DNA of 25,279 bases from a virus. Under the pieces are notes generated by a model, which worked only from the letters and a program-made list of their open reading frames with translations, did not search any database and had not been told where the DNA came from. How positions within the stretch are numbered: the stretch's first letter is position 1; every line of letters starts with the position of its first letter. The DNA lies in the IMG/VR virus record IMGVR_UViG_3300042562_000154, positions 1-25,279 of that record. One strand, given 5' to 3'. Of the stretch, positions 12,306-18,615 are shown piece by piece. A program made the translations under genes and the position numbers.

Positions 12306-12692
12306 ATGAGATTAACAACACAATTACCTTATCAAGGTATTCAATTAGCAGCACCGTTCTGCAAGAGGTCATCAATGATTAAAGATGACCGCAAAAAAGC
12401 CGAAGTTATTAAGCGCATTGTTTGCCAATACTTAGGTTTACCACTATCATTAGTTATGACACGAGGTCGCAAGCACTATTTAGTAGAAGGTAGACAAATG
12501 GCAATGTATTTTATGAGAAAATATACAAGGCTTAGTTTAAACCAAACAGGATTAGAATTTGGCGGCTTAAATCACGCAACTGTAATTCATGCGGTGCATA
12601 CAGTTAACAACATTCTTACATACGATAAAGTGTATATGCGTAAATTTAAAGACGTTGAACACTTAATTAAACAAGACCTTGTAATTAGTTAA
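12306..12692 (+). CDS. Stand-alone DnaA domain IV DNA-binding protein
   Basis: A 128-residue protein consisting almost only of the DNA-binding domain of the chromosomal initiator DnaA. Visible landmarks are LGLPLSLVMTRGRKHYLVEGRQMAMYFMRKYT (residues 43-74) and the DnaA signature GGLNHATVIHAVHTV (86-100), in which H90 and the flanking residues contact the DnaA box. The AAA+ ATPase domain of DnaA is absent. It may direct replication proteins to an origin, compete with host DnaA, or regulate its own gene. A perfect DnaA box lies 4 bases after its stop codon. The ATG at 12306 is chosen because it follows the promoter; the frame extends further upstream but through the promoter itself. Confidence 0.88.
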   Translation: MRLTTQLPYQGIQLAAPFCKRSSMIKDDRKKAEVIKRIVCQYLGLPLSLVMTRGRKHYLVEGRQMAMYFMRKYTRLSLNQTGLEFGGLNHATVIHAVHTVNNILTYDKVYMRKFKDVEHLIKQDLVIS

Positions 12693-12710: not shown

Positions 12711-12726
12711 TACTATATATATAGTA
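12711..12726. repeat. 16-base perfect palindrome, all but two bases A/T
   Basis: TACTATATATATAGTA equals its own reverse complement. It lies between a DnaA box and the -7-like box TACATTTG upstream of the homing endonuclease gene. It could be a duplex-opening site, an operator or a transcript hairpin. Confidence 0.7.
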
Positions 12727-12734
12727 TGCTTATG

Positions 12735-12742
12735 TACATTTG
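12735..12742 (+). promoter_or_regulatory. Possible -7 box before the HNH gene
   Basis: TACATTTG matches TAnnTTTG exactly and is followed by C, as in strong Bacteroidota promoters. No TTG lies 19-21 bases upstream, so a protein bound at the palindrome would have to replace the -33 contact. A transcript would start about at the ATG at 12747 and be almost leaderless. Confidence 0.4.
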
Positions 12743-12746
12743 CTAC

Positions 12747-13277
12747 ATGATAAAAGAACAATTTACACAAATCGAGTTTAAAGGCAAAAAAATTACAGTT
12801 GGTAATTTTGGCTCAATCCTAACTTACAATAATTTAAGAGTTAGAAAACTGCAAGTCAATTCAAGTGGGTATTTATGCTATACAATAGATAAATGTTATT
12901 TAGCGCATAGATTAGTAGCTTTTGCATGGATTGAAAACAATGATCCTATTAATAAAAAGTATGTGAATCATAAAGATGGTAACAAAAAAAACAATCACTT
13001 TAGTAATTTAGAGTGGGTTACCAAGCAAGAAAATGAATTGCATAGCGTAAGAGTATTAGGGAATAAAAGAAATATAAAAGGATTACAAGCTAATTGGGAA
13101 AACCCAACACATTGTAGAGCAATATCCATTTATGACTTAAGCGGTAATTTAATTAAAAATTGTAAGTCAGGTATTGAGGCTGCTAAATATTTAAATGTAG
13201 TACCAACTGCAATTAATAATGCTTTGAAAGGCAGAACAAAAACAACAAAAGGACATATTGTAAAATACACTAATTAA
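12747..13277 (+). CDS. HNH homing endonuclease
   Basis: A 176-residue free-standing HNH endonuclease. The core reads YLAHRLVAFAWIENNDP (residues 51-67) then KYVNHKDGNKKNNHFSNLEWVT (71-92), in which H75, N82-N83 and N87 occupy the HNH metal and catalytic positions. The C-terminal part AISIYDLSGNLIKNCKSGIEAAKYLNVVPTAINNALKGR (about 125-163) is the helix-turn-helix NUMOD1-type DNA-recognition repeat usual in phage homing endonucleases. It probably cuts a rival phage genome near its own insertion site to spread itself. An earlier in-frame ATG at 12726 lies at the end of a palindrome, so the ATG at 12747 (MIKEQF) is preferred. No intron or intein halves are seen around it. Confidence 0.88.
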   Translation: MIKEQFTQIEFKGKKITVGNFGSILTYNNLRVRKLQVNSSGYLCYTIDKCYLAHRLVAFAWIENNDPINKKYVNHKDGNKKNNHFSNLEWVTKQENELHSVRVLGNKRNIKGLQANWENPTHCRAISIYDLSGNLIKNCKSGIEAAKYLNVVPTAINNALKGRTKTTKGHIVKYTN

Positions 13278-13284
13278 TAACACT

Positions 13285-13620
13285 ATGAAAGTTTACATAG
13301 ACCAAGCCTACTTCATGGATTATAGTAATTCAATTGAAGTAATCATGTGCGAATTAGGCACAGAGAATAATACCAATGCAGATTGGAAAACAGCAAGTAT
13401 AGCACTTGAGGACCTAAACCATTTTATCCGCACTCGTTATCCTGATGAACACGTTATTGATATTCCTACACACGAAGGTGAGCATAAGCAATTTGTTGTT
13501 AAATATGTACACAATGCAATGGATAACTTAGAAAAATATTGCAAGGAATATATTGAATGCGGAAAAGAAATAATATATTTGACCGCACCAAACCAAGATT
13601 CAAATTTAAACTTATTTTAA
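13285..13620 (+). CDS. Hypothetical protein next to recombination genes
   Basis: A 111-residue protein of mixed helix and strand content (MKVYIDQAYFMDYSNSIEVIMCELG at the start, then DLNHFIRTRYPDEHVIDIPTHEGEHKQFVVKYVHNAM). It is not recognised. It sits 7 bases after the HNH gene and 10 bases before the annealing-protein gene, so it is probably cotranscribed with recombination genes. The last residues DSNLNLF resemble the loose sliding-clamp binding pattern (Q-x-x-L-x-L-F) placed at protein ends, which would fit a DNA-metabolism role. The match is weak. Confidence 0.5.
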   Translation: MKVYIDQAYFMDYSNSIEVIMCELGTENNTNADWKTASIALEDLNHFIRTRYPDEHVIDIPTHEGEHKQFVVKYVHNAMDNLEKYCKEYIECGKEIIYLTAPNQDSNLNLF

Positions 13621-14858: not shown

Positions 14859-15070
14859 TAGTAACAAGTATCTGTTTATCGGATATTCCCGAAGACAAAA
14901 TCACAACCGCAGCCAATGGCAAAAAGTATGTTAACATAGTAGTTGACCAGCGAAGGGAAAAAGACCAGTATGACAACACGCATACGGTGTACATGAGCCA
15001 AAGTAAAGAAGATAGGCAAAGTAAACTTCCCAAAAAGTATGTAGGCAACGGCAAAGAGTACACGTTTTAA
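14855..15070 (+). CDS. Small conserved protein of the recombination operon
   Basis: A 71-residue polar protein starting MIVTSICLSDIPEDKITT, with NGKKYVNIVVDQRREKDQYDNTHTVYMSQSKEDR in the middle. The strand KYVNIVVDQRREKDQYDNTHTVYMSQ looks like part of an OB-type sheet, so a single-stranded DNA-binding role is possible and would complete the annealing protein plus exonuclease set. Sequence alone does not prove it. It overlaps the exonuclease gene by 4 bases and is the last gene before a clear intrinsic terminator. Confidence 0.55.
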   Translation: MIVTSICLSDIPEDKITTAANGKKYVNIVVDQRREKDQYDNTHTVYMSQSKEDRQSKLPKKYVGNGKEYTF

Positions 15071-15072
15071 TT

Positions 15073-15101
15073 AAAAAATCCTCCCAAGTGGAGGTTTTTT
15101 T
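15073..15101. terminator. Intrinsic terminator of the recombination operon
   Basis: CCTCC at 15080-15084 pairs with GGAGG at 15090-15094 (loop CAAGT), flanked by AAAAAA at 15073-15078 and a run of seven T at 15095-15101. The hairpin with T-run works on the + strand; the A-run could also let it act on the - strand. Confidence 0.88.
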
Positions 15102-15119
15102 ATGTTTGTTTTAAAAATA

Positions 15120-15140
15120 TTCGCTTTGATTTACAGCGAG
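15120..15140. repeat. Inverted repeat upstream of promoter copy 2
   Basis: TTCGCT (15120-15125) and AGCGAG (15135-15140) form an inverted repeat with a 9-base spacer, followed by two near-copies of TTACAA(A)TTAT. It lies about 35-55 bases before the TTG of the next promoter, a place suited to an upstream regulator. No binding protein is identified. Confidence 0.4.
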
Positions 15141-15174
15141 TTACAAATTATTTTACAATTATATTGAAATAGTA

Positions 15175-15204
15175 TTGGATATATCAAAACAGGATGTACA
15201 TTTG
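15175..15204 (+). promoter_or_regulatory. Promoter of Bacteroidota type, copy 2 (ATCAAAA family)
   Basis: TTG at 15175-15177, 19-base spacer, TACATTTG at 15197-15204. ATCAAAA lies at 15183-15189, again 7 bases before the -7 box. The leader continues as CACCAAACCAATAAAAA up to the ATG at 15233. Confidence 0.85.
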
Positions 15205-15207
15205 TAT

Positions 15208-15224
15208 CACCAAACCAATAAAAA
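15208..15224 (+). repeat. 17-base direct repeat in leader, copy A
   Basis: CACCAAACCAATAAAAA here is repeated exactly at 15530-15546, each time a short distance before a start codon. Related A/C-rich leaders (ACCACACAA-) follow the promoters at 12254 and 19341. It may help translation in place of a Shine-Dalgarno sequence. Confidence 0.6.
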
Positions 15225-15232
15225 ATAACATT

Positions 15233-15430
15233 ATGAACATCACAAAAGGACAGTCATCACAAAAAGAACATTTAAGTAACGGTTCATTTACTGCTTGTAA
15301 TCGCAGATTGTCAGGTATTGCTACTAATGACTTTGACCATTTTAAATGGTGTGCTGAAAAATATCCAGAATCTTGTTGTCAAAAATGCTTTAATCGTTTT
15401 ATAGAAAAATTAAACAGACGAAAAAAATAA
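15233..15430 (+). CDS. Small Cys-rich early protein
   Basis: A 65-residue basic protein behind promoter copy 2. It has four to five cysteines (ACNRRLSG, WCAEKYPESCCQKCFNRF), so a zinc-knuckle-like fold is plausible, and ends in KLNRRKK. A frame opening at 15194 is rejected because it would lie inside the promoter; ATG 15233 gives MNITKG. Small zinc proteins just after an early promoter often modify host functions, but nothing in the sequence names a target. No family is recognised. Confidence 0.6.
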   Translation: MNITKGQSSQKEHLSNGSFTACNRRLSGIATNDFDHFKWCAEKYPESCCQKCFNRFIEKLNRRKK

Positions 15431-15474
15431 TAAATTGTCAAAGTTATTGTAGATAAAATTTAAAGATAAAAAAT

Positions 15475-15494
15475 CCCACAGTATTCGTACAGGG
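15475..15494 (+). other. Hairpin with UUCG loop
   Basis: CCC at 15475-15477 faces GGG at 15492-15494, and GTA-TTCG-TAC at 15481-15490 gives a UUCG tetraloop stem with mismatches between. It lies just upstream of another hairpin with a T-run, so the 15431-15530 gap may encode a small structured RNA end. Confidence 0.35.
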
Positions 15495-15500
15495 TTGACA

Positions 15501-15523
15501 GGCTGGAAAGACAGCCATTTTTT
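15501..15523 (+). terminator. Intrinsic terminator
   Basis: GGCTG (15501-15505) pairs with CAGCC (15512-15516), loop GAAAGA, followed by A and six T at 15518-15523. It ends the transcript from promoter copy 2 or lowers its level before the next small genes. Confidence 0.65.
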
Positions 15524-15529
15524 AAAAAA

Positions 15530-15546
15530 CACCAAACCAATAAAAA
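15530..15546 (+). repeat. 17-base direct repeat in leader, copy B
   Basis: Exact copy of CACCAAACCAATAAAAA at 15208-15224. It starts just after the T-run of the preceding terminator and ends one base before the ATG at 15548, so the leader has been kept while the promoter upstream has no TAnnTTTG box. Confidence 0.6.
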
Positions 15547-15547
15547 C

Positions 15548-15658
15548 ATGACACAATTAATTTTTATTTTAGCATTTGCCGTATATGCGGTGCTAACATT
15601 ACCAAGAGTAATGAAACAAACTAAATCAGATTTTAAACACTTTAACAACCTAAACTAA
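15548..15658 (+). CDS. 36-residue single-span membrane protein
   Basis: A small protein MTQLIFILAFAVYAVLTLPRV followed by a basic tail ending FKHFNNLN. It has one transmembrane helix (residues 3-18). It ends in a TAATG junction with the next gene, which supports real translation. The same leader repeat as the 15233 gene precedes it. Function unknown; small phage membrane proteins at such places may act in superinfection exclusion, which is speculation here. Confidence 0.55.
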   Translation: MTQLIFILAFAVYAVLTLPRVMKQTKSDFKHFNNLN

Positions 15659-15921
15659 TGGACAATCAATTTGATGTATCAAGTCGCATTATTGAAATAA
15701 TGAGGCGTTTTAACAAAGAAGAATTAACTTACATGGCAGCAGCAATTGCAATAGCAACAGAGGTTGAGCAGTACGCTAATTTTAAAGCAGAAAAAATGTA
15801 TAGTGAAGAAGATTTAAGAGAAGCATTTAAACAATCAAGACAAGCAGAAATATTTGAAAAAAATATGCCACCTGTGTATGAAAGTTTTGAAGAATGGTTT
15901 GAACAATTTAAAAAGAAATAA
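15658..15921 (+). CDS. Hypothetical helical protein
   Basis: An 87-residue, mainly helical, charged protein (SSRIIEIMRRFNKEELTYMAAAIAIATEVEQY, then EEDLREAFKQSRQAEIFEKN and a tail FEEWFEQFKKK). It is coupled to the small membrane protein upstream by a 1-base overlap and followed after 1 base by another small gene. It is not a recognised family. The regular helices and lack of Cys suggest a small binding or adaptor protein. Confidence 0.6.
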   Translation: MDNQFDVSSRIIEIMRRFNKEELTYMAAAIAIATEVEQYANFKAEKMYSEEDLREAFKQSRQAEIFEKNMPPVYESFEEWFEQFKKK

Positions 15922-15922
15922 C

Positions 15923-16090
15923 ATGAAGTCGGAAATATTAATGAAAAGGCGTAACCGAGTATACAGGTTATTTATTCTAATGGTTAAGGAAGGCAACCAC
16001 ATGAAGGCAAGACAGGCAGATTACTTGTTGAGAGTAATTGACAACCGATTAGCAAGTTTACAAATAGAAAACTTATATACTTTTAACTAA
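15923..16090 (+). CDS. Small basic helical protein
   Basis: A 55-residue basic protein (MKSEILMKRRNRVYRLFILMVKEGNHMKARQADYLLRVIDNRLASLQ). The helix-rich, Arg/Lys-rich composition hints at nucleic-acid binding. A frame opening at 15854 lies within the preceding gene and is not used; ATG 15923 follows that gene after one base. It ends in a TAATG junction with the next gene. Function unknown. Confidence 0.55.
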   Translation: MKSEILMKRRNRVYRLFILMVKEGNHMKARQADYLLRVIDNRLASLQIENLYTFN

Positions 16091-16269
16091 TGAGCAAACG
16101 AGGCGGTAAAAGAAAAGGTGCTGGCAGACCAAGCAAGGATAACGCATTAACTGAGGGTATAAATGTATCCGTAGACATCAAGACAAAGCAATCATACAAG
16201 CTACTACCACTTGAAGTTAAGAGGCAGATAGGGGATAGGTTAAGAAGTGTTTTGGGAATGTATGTATAA
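16090..16269 (+). CDS. Small AT-hook-like basic protein
   Basis: A 59-residue protein starting MSKRGGKRKGAGRPSKDNA. The KRKGAGRPSK stretch is the Gly-Arg-Pro type core seen in AT-hooks and at the N-terminal ends of phage small terminase and replication proteins. The rest (VSVDIKTKQSYKLLPLEVKRQIGDRLRSVL) looks like a strand plus helix. Its TAA stop is part of the left end (GTATAAC) of an attC-like inverted repeat. It is coupled to the preceding gene by a 1-base overlap. Likely DNA-binding, target unknown. Confidence 0.55.
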   Translation: MSKRGGKRKGAGRPSKDNALTEGINVSVDIKTKQSYKLLPLEVKRQIGDRLRSVLGMYV

Positions 16270-16359
16270 CGTTTTGCGTATATACGAGGTACGCCTTAAC
16301 GGAAAATTTAAATTATAAACAAATGCTTGTAGGCGTATCTTGTATATACGCTGTTAAGC
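16264..16359 (+). repeat. attC-like imperfect inverted repeat 1
   Basis: Two 20-base arms (16276-16295 and 16332-16351) are reverse complements except at two places where C/T changes leave G-U-type pairs. The outer ends are GTATAAC (16264-16270) and GTTAAGC (16353-16359); the second fits the integron core site GTTRRRY exactly and TAAC pairs with GTTA. The loop is 36 bases and the whole about 96, within the known size range of attC sites. The stop codon of the upstream gene lies inside the left end. No integron integrase is in the window. Confidence 0.5.
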
Positions 16360-16374
16360 ACAGTTAAATTAATT

Positions 16375-16599
16375 ATGACAACACTAAAATTAGTAAACTT
16401 GATGATGCGTTCATCTGACAACAATCCTTATGCTGGAAAATTATCCAAGAAAGACAATGTATTGGCTGCAATAGAACTTGCAAAACTTGCAAAAAACTTT
16501 GCTGACACAGGACAAACTAACGAAGCAATGAATATTGAAAGTAGCCAATGGGTTGAAGTGATAGGTAAGTTGGAAGGTAAACTTCTTAATTGTGCCTAA
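16375..16599 (+). CDS. Putative cassette-borne hypothetical protein 1
   Basis: A 74-residue protein (MTTLKLVNLMMRSSDNNPYAGKLSKKDNVLAAIELAKLAKNFADTGQ, ending KLEGKLLNCA). It is helical, without Cys pairs or membrane spans, and not recognised. It lies between two attC-like repeats: it starts 16 bases after the GTTAAGC end of the first, and its TAA stop is part of the GCCTAAC end of the second. That layout is that of a gene in an integron-type cassette. Such genes often encode accessory functions, but no function can be named here. Confidence 0.6.
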   Translation: MTTLKLVNLMMRSSDNNPYAGKLSKKDNVLAAIELAKLAKNFADTGQTNEAMNIESSQWVEVIGKLEGKLLNCA

Positions 16600-16726
16600 C
16601 GGCTACGGCTTTACGCTGTGGTGGAATTAAAGCACTAAAGTTAAATTAAAAAACAAAAGTTCAATATGAGTACAAATGTAAAATCGAAGCAGTCAAACCG
16701 CCATAGCGTTAAAGCCGATGTTAGCG
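16594..16726 (+). repeat. attC-like imperfect inverted repeat 2
   Basis: Left end GCCTAAC (16594-16600) fits the integron core site RYYYAAC exactly and holds the stop codon of the preceding gene. CGGCTTTACGCTGTGGTGG (16606-16624) pairs with CCGCCATAGCGTTAAAGCCG (16698-16717) over 19 bp with one bulged T and a few wobbles. CTAAC pairs with GTTAG at 16720-16724. The loop is about 73 bases. Length about 133, bulged base and end motifs fit an attC site, though the right end GTTAGCG only partly fits GTTRRRY. Confidence 0.52.
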
Positions 16727-17052
16727 GTAGTGCTTTTGTGGAAATTTCATCACTTTATTTTTGGAGTGATTGGACAACTACTGAAAAGCATAAAATTTAC
16801 TTAAAAGAAATAATTGGCTTTATCATTCATTGGCGTGGGGATAGTTGGCACATTGAAGTAAAGACAAAGGAAAAGATTAGCGAATATGAGTATAGAAGCT
16901 ATGAACTGTCACATTGTGTTTATCCGAAACAAATAGCTGAATTGATAGCCAATAAGGATTGTAAAATTATTGCTTTTAAGAATACTCATAACTCAAATAA
17001 TTTTATAGACCACTTAAATAAAGTGTTGAAATGGGCGGAGTCGCTGTCGTAG
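16666..17052 (+). CDS. Putative cassette-borne hypothetical protein 2
   Basis: A 128-residue frame with an ATG at 16666. Its middle (LYFWSDWTTTEKHKIYLKEIIGFII, HWRGDSWHIEVKTKEKI, SEYEYRSYELSHC) is beta-rich, and the end (IDHLNKVLKWAESL) a helix. No family is recognised. The ATG lies in the loop of attC-like repeat 2, and the first 20 or so codons cover its right arm. If that repeat is a true attC, translation more likely starts at the GTG at 16738 (MEISSLYFW), 17 bases after the cassette junction, giving 104 residues. The ATG start is kept here because it is the only in-frame ATG. An imperfect inverted repeat (16720-16733 and 17053-17066) flanks the shorter form. Confidence 0.5.
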   Translation: MSTNVKSKQSNRHSVKADVSGSAFVEISSLYFWSDWTTTEKHKIYLKEIIGFIIHWRGDSWHIEVKTKEKISEYEYRSYELSHCVYPKQIAELIANKDCKIIAFKNTHNSNNFIDHLNKVLKWAESLS

Positions 17053-17066
17053 CATTACCGCTAACT
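17053..17066. repeat. Inverted partner of the cassette junction
   Basis: GCATTACCGCTAAC begins right after the TAG stop at 17052 and is the reverse complement, at 13 of 14 bases, of GTTAGCGGTAGTGC at 16720-16733. In a circular cassette these two would lie at opposite ends of one attC. Downstream only a short hairpin (ATTTG-CGAAA-CAAAT) follows, so a third attC would be truncated. Confidence 0.45.
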
Positions 17067-17111
17067 TACTTATTTGCGAAACAAATGTATAAAGTACCAT
17101 GAAGAAAATAC

Positions 17112-17142
17112 TTGCATAATTAAAAACTAAGTATTATTATTG
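17112..17142 (+). promoter_or_regulatory. Likely promoter of the replication operon
   Basis: TTG at 17112-17114, 20-base spacer, TATTATTG at 17135-17142 (seven of eight matches to TAnnTTTG). It would produce a leader of about 95 bases before the initiator gene. It lacks the ATCAAAA heptamer of the other promoters. Confidence 0.55.
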
Positions 17143-17153
17143 CATTGTAGTTC

Positions 17154-17240
17154 GGTCTGACACAAAGAACTTAAACGTATTAAACGCCTCTTTGTTGGAT
17201 TGTGGAAGTCAGACCCCACATGAAGATAAGGAGGCTTTTT
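17154..17240 (+). ncRNA. Structured leader with possible Shine-Dalgarno switch
   Basis: GGTCTGAC (17154-17161) pairs perfectly with GTCAGACC (17208-17215). ACAAAGA (17162-17168) pairs perfectly with TCTTTGT (17189-17195). In competition with this second helix, GCCTCTTT (17186-17193) pairs over 8 bp with AAGGAGGC (17228-17235), the Shine-Dalgarno sequence, followed by five T at 17236-17240, like a terminator. TGTGG/CCACA (17201-17205, 17216-17220) is a further alternative. The loop holds TTAAACG twice. The pairings are seen; the switching is inference. No known riboswitch class is recognised. Confidence 0.5.
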
Positions 17241-17245
17241 AATTT

Positions 17246-17944
17246 ATGAGAAATAATTATATTGTAATTCAAGGATGGATGATTACTGATTTAAATTTAA
17301 ATGGTAGTAGTCTTTTAACATTTGCCTTGATTTATGGGTTTTCACAAGATGGTAATTCCGAGTTTACAGGTTCAATTAATTATGTTTGTAAATGGTTAAA
17401 CTGTTCAAGACCAACAGCCATGAAAGCATTGAAGGAATTATGTGAGATGGATTTGATTGTTAAGTCTGAATTAGTGGTTAATGGTGTTACTTTTAACCGA
17501 TATAAAATATCTTTAGAGGGGGTAAAGAAACTTTACACAGGTAGTAAAGAAACTTTACAGGGGGGTAGTAAAGAAATTTTACCTAATAATACTACTTTAT
17601 ATAATACTAATAATAATATAGATATAGTAATACCTAAATCTGAACTTGAGTTGACATTTGATTCTTATTTGGAAATGAGGAAGCAAATAAAGAAACCTAC
17701 AACACCTTATGCAGTAAATTTAATTAAAAAGAAATTGGTTCAGATGACACAAAATAACGAGAGTGAAATGTGCGACATACTAAATCAATCAATTGTTAAT
17801 AGTTGGGCAGGTATTTACCCAATAAAAAATACCTTTGTAAAAAAAGAAAAGCCAACAATGCGAACAACTAACGAAGTATTTGACAACGTAATTGAACGCA
17901 TAAGGAATGGAGAGGATACAACCGTTAAGATAATTGGATTATGA
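17246..17944 (+). CDS. Replication initiator with winged-helix domain
   Basis: A 232-residue protein that most likely opens the phage origin and recruits the helicase. Residues 1-90 are a winged helix: IQGWMITDLNLNGSSLLTFALIYGFSQDG, then INYVCKWLNCSRPTAMKALKELCEMDLIVKSE, with the recognition helix SRPTAMKALKEL. A low-complexity linker (residues about 92-132, with repeated GSKETLQGGSKEIL and Asn-rich NNTTLYNTNNN) separates a C-terminal helical domain (DSYLEMRKQIKKPTTPYAVNLIKKKL, DILNQSIVNSWAGIYPI) similar to the C-terminal ends of DnaD or phage O-like replication proteins. Three iterons and an AT-rich tract are coded within the linker, as in the lambda O gene. The strong AAGGAGG before ATG 17246 is rare in this genome. 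Confidence 0.78.
   Translation: MRNNYIVIQGWMITDLNLNGSSLLTFALIYGFSQDGNSEFTGSINYVCKWLNCSRPTAMKALKELCEMDLIVKSELVVNGVTFNRYKISLEGVKKLYTGSKETLQGGSKEILPNNTTLYNTNNNIDIVIPKSELELTFDSYLEMRKQIKKPTTPYAVNLIKKKLVQMTQNNESEMCDILNQSIVNSWAGIYPIKNTFVKKEKPTMRTTNEVFDNVIERIRNGEDTTVKIIGL
17522..17582. repeat. Three origin iterons inside the initiator gene
   Basis: GTAAAGAAACTTTAC occurs at 17522-17536 and 17544-17558, and GTAAAGAAATTTTAC (one change) at 17568-17582. Each copy is itself an inverted repeat (GTAAAG/CTTTAC around AAA). The spacing of 22 and 24 bases puts the copies about two helical turns apart, on one face of the DNA. They lie in the linker-coding part of the initiator gene. Confidence 0.78.
17584..17632. 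other. AT-rich tract beside iterons (candidate duplex-opening element)
   Basis: Only 5 of these 49 bases are G or C. The stretch is made of repeated TAATA/TATA units and begins directly after the third iteron, matching the order iterons then AT-rich region of lambda ori. It encodes the Asn-rich part of the initiator's linker. Confidence 0.68.
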
Positions 17945-18615
17945 ACATAACAGATAAACTAACAATAACTAACGAGGATAACATGGATTTGATGGCACGT
18001 TACCCTGATAACTATTTTGATTTAGCAATAGTTGATCCACCTTATGGCATTGGAGAAAGCGGAGGTAAAAACAGAAACAATAAAAAAGGTTCTAATATTG
18101 GTTTAAAATCACCTAATTACACAAAAAAATATTGGGATAATAGCATTCCTCCAAAAGAATATTTTGATGAACTTTTTAGAGTAAGCAAAAATCAAATAAT
18201 ATGGGGAGGTAATTATTTTATTGAATATTTAAAACCAACAAGTTGTTTTTTAGTTTGGGATAAAAAAGAAACTGCAAAAGGAGATTTTGCTGATTGTGAA
18301 TTAGCTTGGACAAGTTTTAAAAGTGCTGTTAGAAAATTTACTTATGGCTGGATAGGATTTGATTATTTAAATAACCCACATAAAGAAAAAAAAATACATC
18401 CTACTCAAAAGCCAGTAGCCTTGTATAAATGGATATTAGATAAATACGCAAAAGAAGGAGATAAAATACTTGACACACATTTAGGTAGTGGAAGTATTGC
18501 AATAGCTTGTCACGATTATGATTTTAATTTAGTAGCTTGCGAGCTTGATAAAGAATACTACGACAAAGCAGTTGAGAGAATTAAAAACCACGTTAAACAA
18601 TTAAGACTAATATGA
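17941..18615 (+). CDS. DNA methyltransferase (N6-adenine or N4-cytosine, beta class)
   Basis: A 224-residue enzyme with catalytic motif DPPYGI at residues 32-37, preceded by YFDLAIV, and the S-adenosylmethionine site LDTHLGSGSIAIAC at 177-190, followed by CELDKEYYDKAVERI. The catalytic motif before the cofactor motif marks the beta class of amino-methyltransferases. The conserved HPTQKP (153-158) lies between. DPPY fits adenine N6 best; N4-cytosine is possible. The target domain (residues about 40-120) is short, so a short site is expected. No partner restriction enzyme is nearby, so it probably protects phage DNA or controls replication. It overlaps genes on both sides by 4 bases, which ties it to the replication operon. 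Confidence 0.88.
   Translation: MNITDKLTITNEDNMDLMARYPDNYFDLAIVDPPYGIGESGGKNRNNKKGSNIGLKSPNYTKKYWDNSIPPKEYFDELFRVSKNQIIWGGNYFIEYLKPTSCFLVWDKKETAKGDFADCELAWTSFKSAVRKFTYGWIGFDYLNNPHKEKKIHPTQKPVALYKWILDKYAKEGDKILDTHLGSGSIAIACHDYDFNLVACELDKEYYDKAVERIKNHVKQLRLI

Follow-up and report, generated by a model that had tools for sequence, protein, structure and literature searches.

Two hairpin-bordered gene cassettes in a virus genome as probable members of a phage-carried, integron-like recombination system

The window, meaning the whole stretch of 25,279 bases analysed here, is a virus record with portal, structural, methyltransferase and replication genes. At the 3' end of a 59-aa phage ORF (16090–16269, + strand like all features of the block), which serves as an insertion platform, lies a block of two hairpins and two small genes. 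Hairpin A (16264–16359, 96 nt) is attC-like, with a stem of 21 bp and a loop of 34 nt, and has the layout GTATAAC - gtttt - GCGTATATACGAGGTACGCCT ..34 nt.. AGGCGTATCTTGTATATACGC - t - GTTAAGC, where GTATAAC (16264–16270) is the left core box and the left border of cassette 1 and GTTAAGC (16353–16359) the right box. Together with the 74-aa gene downstream of it (16375–16599), which encodes a conserved phage protein of unknown function with 77–82% identity in other phages, it makes up cassette 1 (16270–16599). The core box GCCTAAC (16594–16600) ends this cassette and is complementary, with one G.T pair, to GTTAAGC of hairpin A, the two being the ends of one and the same cassette. GCCTAAC also opens the attC-like hairpin B (16594–16726, 133 nt), GCCTAAC - ggcta - CGGCTTTACGCTGTGGTGG ..73 nt.. 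CCGCCATAGCGTTAAAGCCG - at - GTTAGCG, with a stem of ~19 bp, a single bulged base, a loop of 73 nt and the right box at 16720–16726. Cassette 2 (16600–17064) consists of hairpin B and a 128-aa gene (16666–17052) whose start codon lies within the hairpin loop, and shows terminal complementarity between 16720–16734 and 17051–17065. The box CGCTAAC (17059–17065), shortly 3' of the stop of the 128-aa ORF (17052), is the right border of the block and is followed by the right platform flank (17066–17101). The borders of both cassettes are drawn from the AA|C cores, and the AAC is a putative exchange point, judged from junctions in the Freya and P12002 phages described below.

Hairpins were detected with a purpose-written stem scanner, checked on shuffles and control loci and used in place of a covariance model because ordinary aligners misalign such palindromes. 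When the region 15001–18500 was submitted to 600 dinucleotide-preserving shuffles the best shuffled score was 18.4, compared to 24.5 and 20.1 for hairpins A and B, and the two long inverted repeats of 96 and 133 nt claimed by an earlier sequence-only reading of this DNA are present far beyond chance. DNA folding of the + strand gave z = -5.0 for hairpin A and z = -1.9 for hairpin B, the - strand being weaker in both cases. No T-run follows the stems, and a search of the window with Rfam gave no match for the hairpins and weak matches elsewhere only. The same reading had reported a bulged base, found in hairpin B, and upstream stop codons placed inside the left core sites, which holds for the 59-aa and 74-aa ORFs (TAA within TAAC). 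It had also proposed an exact fit to the consensus RYYYAAC/GTTRRRY; GTTAAGC and GCCTAAC do fit but belong to different hairpins, while GTATAAC and GTTAGCG do not, leaving one fitting box of two in each hairpin. A near-identical copy of the hairpin A stem was found in the array of a jumbo phage (L050, 8805–8898). Further downstream in the window, within the replication gene, three tandem copies of AGGGGGTAAAGAAACTTTACA (17517–17583, spacing 22 and 24), also seen in distant relatives, represent a possible iteron-type origin.

Relatives of the window site were found via the neighbouring replication gene. In L002, the nearest relative, with ~83–99% identity in blocks around the site, positions 16247–17101 are entirely missing, and L004 is likewise cassette-free. 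In L003 the left flank is the same up to GTATAAC and the right flank is homologous (CAAATGTATAAAGTAC) after its own ...TTATAAC, with one different cassette carrying a 76-aa gene in between. The 59-aa ORF ends in ..SVLGMYV* in the window and ..SVLGLYV* in L003, compared to ..ILIKYLHN* in the cassette-free L002 and L004. The site is polymorphic, with cassettes present, absent or replaced among relatives, which bears out the proposals of integron-like cassettes in a phage and of their phage-borne spread; a conservation of the repeats at this site in all relatives, named beforehand as an observation that would speak against them, was not seen. The missing block is close to the insertion predicted between 16270 and 17066 but overshoots the core boxes by 17 bp on the left and 36 bp on the right, where the right flank is missing in L002, and these extra flanking bases led to the rejection of an origin of the window platform by a single clean insertion into the allele seen in L002. 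Directly upstream, between the 59-aa ORF and the small ORF that stops at 16090, the sequence 16077–16089 appears to be a second exchange point adjoining the cassette site; here L003 and L004 carry different extra genes, a DNA-cytosine-methyltransferase-like ORF of 328 aa (L003, 3022–4008) and an unrelated ORF of 217 aa (L004, 3371–4024). Elsewhere in the window an HNH (I-HmuI-like) endonuclease gene (12726–13277) is a probable homing insertion, since the matches to L002–L004 end near 12675 and restart at 13269–13285, these relatives being without that stretch.

Protein searches with the 128-aa protein revealed no relative in viral contigs, phages or plasmids. The 74-aa gene, on the other hand, occurs as a cassette in six contexts besides the window (L022/L030/L031, L024, L025, L026, L027 and L032), bordered by GTTAGGC... 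and ...GCCTAAC and surrounded by differing hairpins. One gene thereby bears unrelated hairpin stems in different phages, while the cassette ends co-vary (GCAC with GTGC, GCAAC with GTTGC, GCGC with GCGC). Since members of the same family occur in L028, L029 and L033–L036 as ordinary phage genes with no hairpins around them, cassettes probably capture phage genes. A scan of genome contigs with the 74-aa family gave matches in two MAG contigs only, L022 and L023. The first of these (JAFMKU010000099.1), assigned to a MAG of Candidatus Microthrix, is similar to L030/L031 in the surroundings of the cassette gene, has the same hairpins and is probably mis-binned phage DNA. In L021/L029 the same leader, approximately CCTTTAACACCAAAGAGAGATG, stands before several small phage genes in succession and is a putative repeated translation or regulatory element.

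One strict motif retrieved 96 stretches of viral contigs with hairpins of this family, and the same kind is present in the Polaribacter phages P12002L and P12002S and in Tenacibaculum phage JQ. The layout is constant, NNNNAAC, 4–6 nt, a stem of ~14–21 bp, loop, stem, 1–3 nt and GTTRNNN, with total lengths clustering near 95, 131 and 200 nt. In the boxes AAC/GTT is kept, as is an R (A or G) at position four, while positions 5–7 are free, and the consensus RYYYAAC/GTTRRRY is not followed. Differences between the arms, counted in 106 hairpins with search seeds left out and with strand-neutral weights, are mostly G(left).T(right) (166, versus 24 T.G, 17 C.A and 10 A.C), peaking at stem positions 7–8 and 12–13, and the + strand therefore folds better. 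Phages with the system range up to contigs of 362 kb, and a contig of 93 kb holds ~33 hairpins between 69.8 and 92.2 kb, nearly all in one orientation; the phage status of the IMG/VR contigs rests mostly on IMG/VR, and a check with a single terminase model matched 4 of 20. Three contigs of 83.9, 102.6 and 256 kb (L210, L212 and L213) carry the same nine hairpins at equal distances and probably are assemblies of a single virus that differ in length. The known isolates with the system infect marine Flavobacteriia, and hairpin relatives in Polaribacter, Cellulophaga and Tenacibaculum phages suggest that the window phage has hosts from this group.

The absence of an integrase near the cassettes, pointed out by the sequence-only reading, was confirmed in that no PF00589 recombinase was found in the 25-kb record. 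A host recombinase was at first suggested by the lack of PF00589 in the first 10 records, a view changed by wider sampling. Among 47 array-bearing records 5 contain a PF00589 recombinase and 42, many being fragments, do not; four of the five recombinases lie 3' of the hairpins, on the same strand and close by, and the recombinase of G028, ~25 kb from its hairpins, was set aside. A search of viral contigs with an alignment of three such proteins gave 134 loci of which the best 80, including the 3 query sources, were kept. Hairpins are found in the flank at 66 of these 80 loci, and of the 242 hairpins 241 share the strand of the recombinase and 239 lie upstream of it; shuffled sequence gave 0 hairpins and control loci, 255 kb in total, gave 1. 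The hairpin-free loci mostly have <1 kb of upstream sequence. When examining five plasmids with relatives of the recombinase no consistent array-attI layout was seen. In Danklef_1 (L264), a sister phage of Freya, the recombinase frame beside a cassette array is broken (41006–41491; annotated 132 bp, one in-frame stop).

The array-linked proteins are tyrosine recombinases, mostly of 254–270 aa. Their best curated family is NF040815 (XerA/integron integrase), with 146–188 bits under a cut-off of 220, and they show likeness to PDB 4a8e (XerC-like/XerA) and 2a3v; the match to TIGR02249 is below cut-off and limited to profile positions 1–191 and 238–313. Between GKG and HxLRH there are 60 residues (64–66 in Freya and other relatives) compared to 107 in IntI1 and 72–73 in XerC/D, and the IntI-specific insert, or additional domain, is absent. 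In a tree of 40 proteins, with two IntI and two XerC/D each included and several long branches, a supported branch sets the array-linked recombinases apart from the sampled IntI and XerC/D.

Directly before the start of the recombinase gene 61 loci have the attI-like core AACTATTATATATA, the information content being about zero over most of the 30 bases 5' of it. Near-identical platforms with different cassettes, for instance L170/L171/L175 and L177/L178, diverge exactly at TAAC. In Freya another sequence, ACCCCTATAAC..., follows the AAC and the core therefore differs between recombinase lineages. The window, having no recombinase in its 25 kb, is without such a site, and its right flank 17066–17101 differs from the attI core seen beside recombinase genes.

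Natural REARRANGEMENTS could be followed in seven isolates of Polaribacter phage Freya (Freya_1, 2, 5, 6, 8, 9 and 10), plaque-purified on one Polaribacter host and with genomes of 44.0–48.9 kb (PMC8776804); the word "integron" does not occur in that paper. The variants are Illumina assemblies, taken as deposited. Outside the array 42,063 bp are identical except for 0–4 mismatches, while the distance from the anchor gene to the recombinase is 1915, 2757, 3659, 4131, 5955, 6550 or 6857 bp. Compared to Freya_10, the variants 1, 2, 5 and 9 have an AAC at 1867, 2709, 3611 or 6502 joined to AAC 6809, which in this reference is the core before the recombinase, and in Freya_8 position 2709 is joined to 3611. 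Freya_6 equals Freya_5 plus 472 bp, one cassette with a hairpin too weak for the scanner, placed beside attI and the recombinase. Five of the six variants break exactly at AAC cores with an overlap of three or four bases, and the four hairpin-side AACs at the junctions are left boxes of detected hairpins; the stretch contains 184 AACs in all. Between P12002L and P12002S, too, there are block differences, with a number of the borders lying at AAC, and no PF00589 recombinase was found in the complete genomes of these two phages and JQ. The junctions correspond to a G-TT core, AAC being GTT on the other strand, the base-exact cut being ambiguous within AAC. A crossing at the right-hand GTT box, as in classical integrons and in the sequence-only reading, was dropped after the Freya junctions, and as exchange takes place at the left-box AAC each cassette consists of a hairpin and the gene downstream of it. 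This order is opposite to that of classical attC cassettes, whose layout that reading had recognised.

Integrase-less attC clusters (CALINs) have been published from phages, Polaribacter phage P12002L among them (Qi et al. 2023, PMC9892861), where sites of P12002L were detected by HattCI and several phage attC sites, one of them from P12002L, were active with IntI1. The likeness is evident, with hairpin sites between small phage genes in an integrase-less genome, and P12002L bears the hairpins described here. The window itself has the features of a CALIN, with two attC-like hairpins, phage genes and no PF00589 recombinase in the record, but with reservations concerning boxes and orientation as to the identity of its hairpins as attC. 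In the accessible text of PMC9892861, however, the sites are treated as bacterial attC, and a linked recombinase, an attI core, reversed cassettes and natural rearrangements are not reported. With classical integrons the arrays share a tyrosine recombinase reading away from the array with a site directly before it, folded sites with complementary ends, the G-TT core and attI-anchored insertions and deletions. They differ in that the recombinase is without the IntI-specific insert (60–66 residues versus 107 in IntI1), the genes point toward attI with the hairpin 5' of the gene, and the right box is GTTR without RRY. The recombinase resembles XerA, XerC and XerD in fold and size (NF040815; PDB 4a8e) but scores under the family cut-off, is found linked to arrays of cassettes and to a core resembling attI, and is split off by a supported branch from the sampled XerC/XerD and IntI. 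A phage-encoded unit of recombinase, attI and array was not found described in the open-access literature, a scope that leaves out most subscription papers and all preprints, and the system is apparently both widespread and undescribed.

An origin of the block as classical attC cassettes from a host integron, moved by a host IntI with the phage as a mere carrier, is in line with the activity of one P12002L site with IntI1 in E. coli (PMC9892861), and with the window, P12002L/S and JQ having no recombinase of their own. It is nevertheless improbable, as the arrays show tight linkage to a non-IntI recombinase that is encoded by the phages and has an attI core of its own, both the exchange points and the orientation of the genes are the reverse of those in classical cassettes, RRY is not kept in the right boxes and genomes of Bacteroidetes very rarely contain a complete integron (PMC9024848). 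Instead of the host integron integrase that had been proposed, the likely recombinase is a phage-encoded one of the Xer/XerA type, adjoining such arrays in many phages.

Neither does the recombinase appear to be simply the lysogeny integrase of the phage, with cassettes piling up beside it: four of the six Freya variants recombine directly before the gene, a fifth has a cassette placed there, and the core adjoining the gene is conserved along with it, so that this explanation is very improbable even when considering the XerA-like best curated family (NF040815, scores as above) and the two annotated integrases each in Ingeline and Leef. The hairpins could also be seen as transcript elements, i.e. 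terminators or RNA processing sites, the variation then arising by homologous recombination between short repeats; the better folding of the + strand with G.T pairs, like an RNA stem, and the RecT encoded by Freya agree with this. The five deletion-type Freya junctions share three or four bases only, though, and fall at hairpin cores or the pre-recombinase core among the 184 AACs, the last core directly adjoins the recombinase gene and shares its conservation, and T-runs after the stems and Rfam matches for the hairpins are lacking, which makes this explanation, too, very improbable.

The window block very probably represents two gene cassettes of a phage-carried, integron-like site-specific recombination system. 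Taken jointly, the observations make it likely that this is a distinct phage-borne class of integron, with an Xer-like recombinase and an attI core of its own, the recombinase lacking the IntI insert, with folded sites with conserved G.T pairs, reversed cassette genes and an array forming an operon that ends in the recombinase, and with a gene pool common to phages in which recombinase-less ones, including the window phage, join in trans. A cassette consists of one hairpin followed usually by one small gene and ends in an NNNNAAC complementary to the GTTNNNN 3' of the hairpin, and a circle formed by excision would thus contain a complete folded site. The small tyrosine recombinase encoded just after the array in many phages would be the catalyst, joining sites mutually or to the attI-like site, AAC-TATTATATATA, directly 5' of its gene; the folded + strand would be the substrate and the cut is predicted to fall within the AAC (GTT on the other strand). 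Viewed as reverse complement the arrangement reads intI(reading away)-attI-[cassette-attC]n with a G-TT core, the + strand corresponding to the classical bottom strand. Array and recombinase may be transcribed together as a phage operon that does without a cassette promoter at attI, and given the gene orientation such a promoter (Pc) is unlikely to be needed. Since the 25 kb of the window contain cassettes and no recombinase, recombination may occur in trans from a co-infecting phage, prophage or host; alternatively a recombinase gene might lie beyond the fragment. Counting against the phage-borne system are the flanks beyond the window boxes and the variety of stems on one gene, which it leaves unexplained, as well as the lack of a PF00589 recombinase in 42 of the 47 array-bearing records and in P12002L, P12002S and JQ, the origin of the Freya variants from Illumina assemblies and the weak hairpin of the extra Freya_6 cassette.

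Nearly all that is known of integrons concerns bacterial platforms, and attC clusters in phages have been explained as carried bacterial sites. The present results suggest that a complete system for exchanging cassettes belongs to the phages themselves and is active among the isolates of one set. Such a system would explain the turnover of small accessory genes in these phages and, using Freya and its Polaribacter host, is directly testable in cultured strains. The simple Xer-like recombinase may in addition give a handle on how integron integrases arose.
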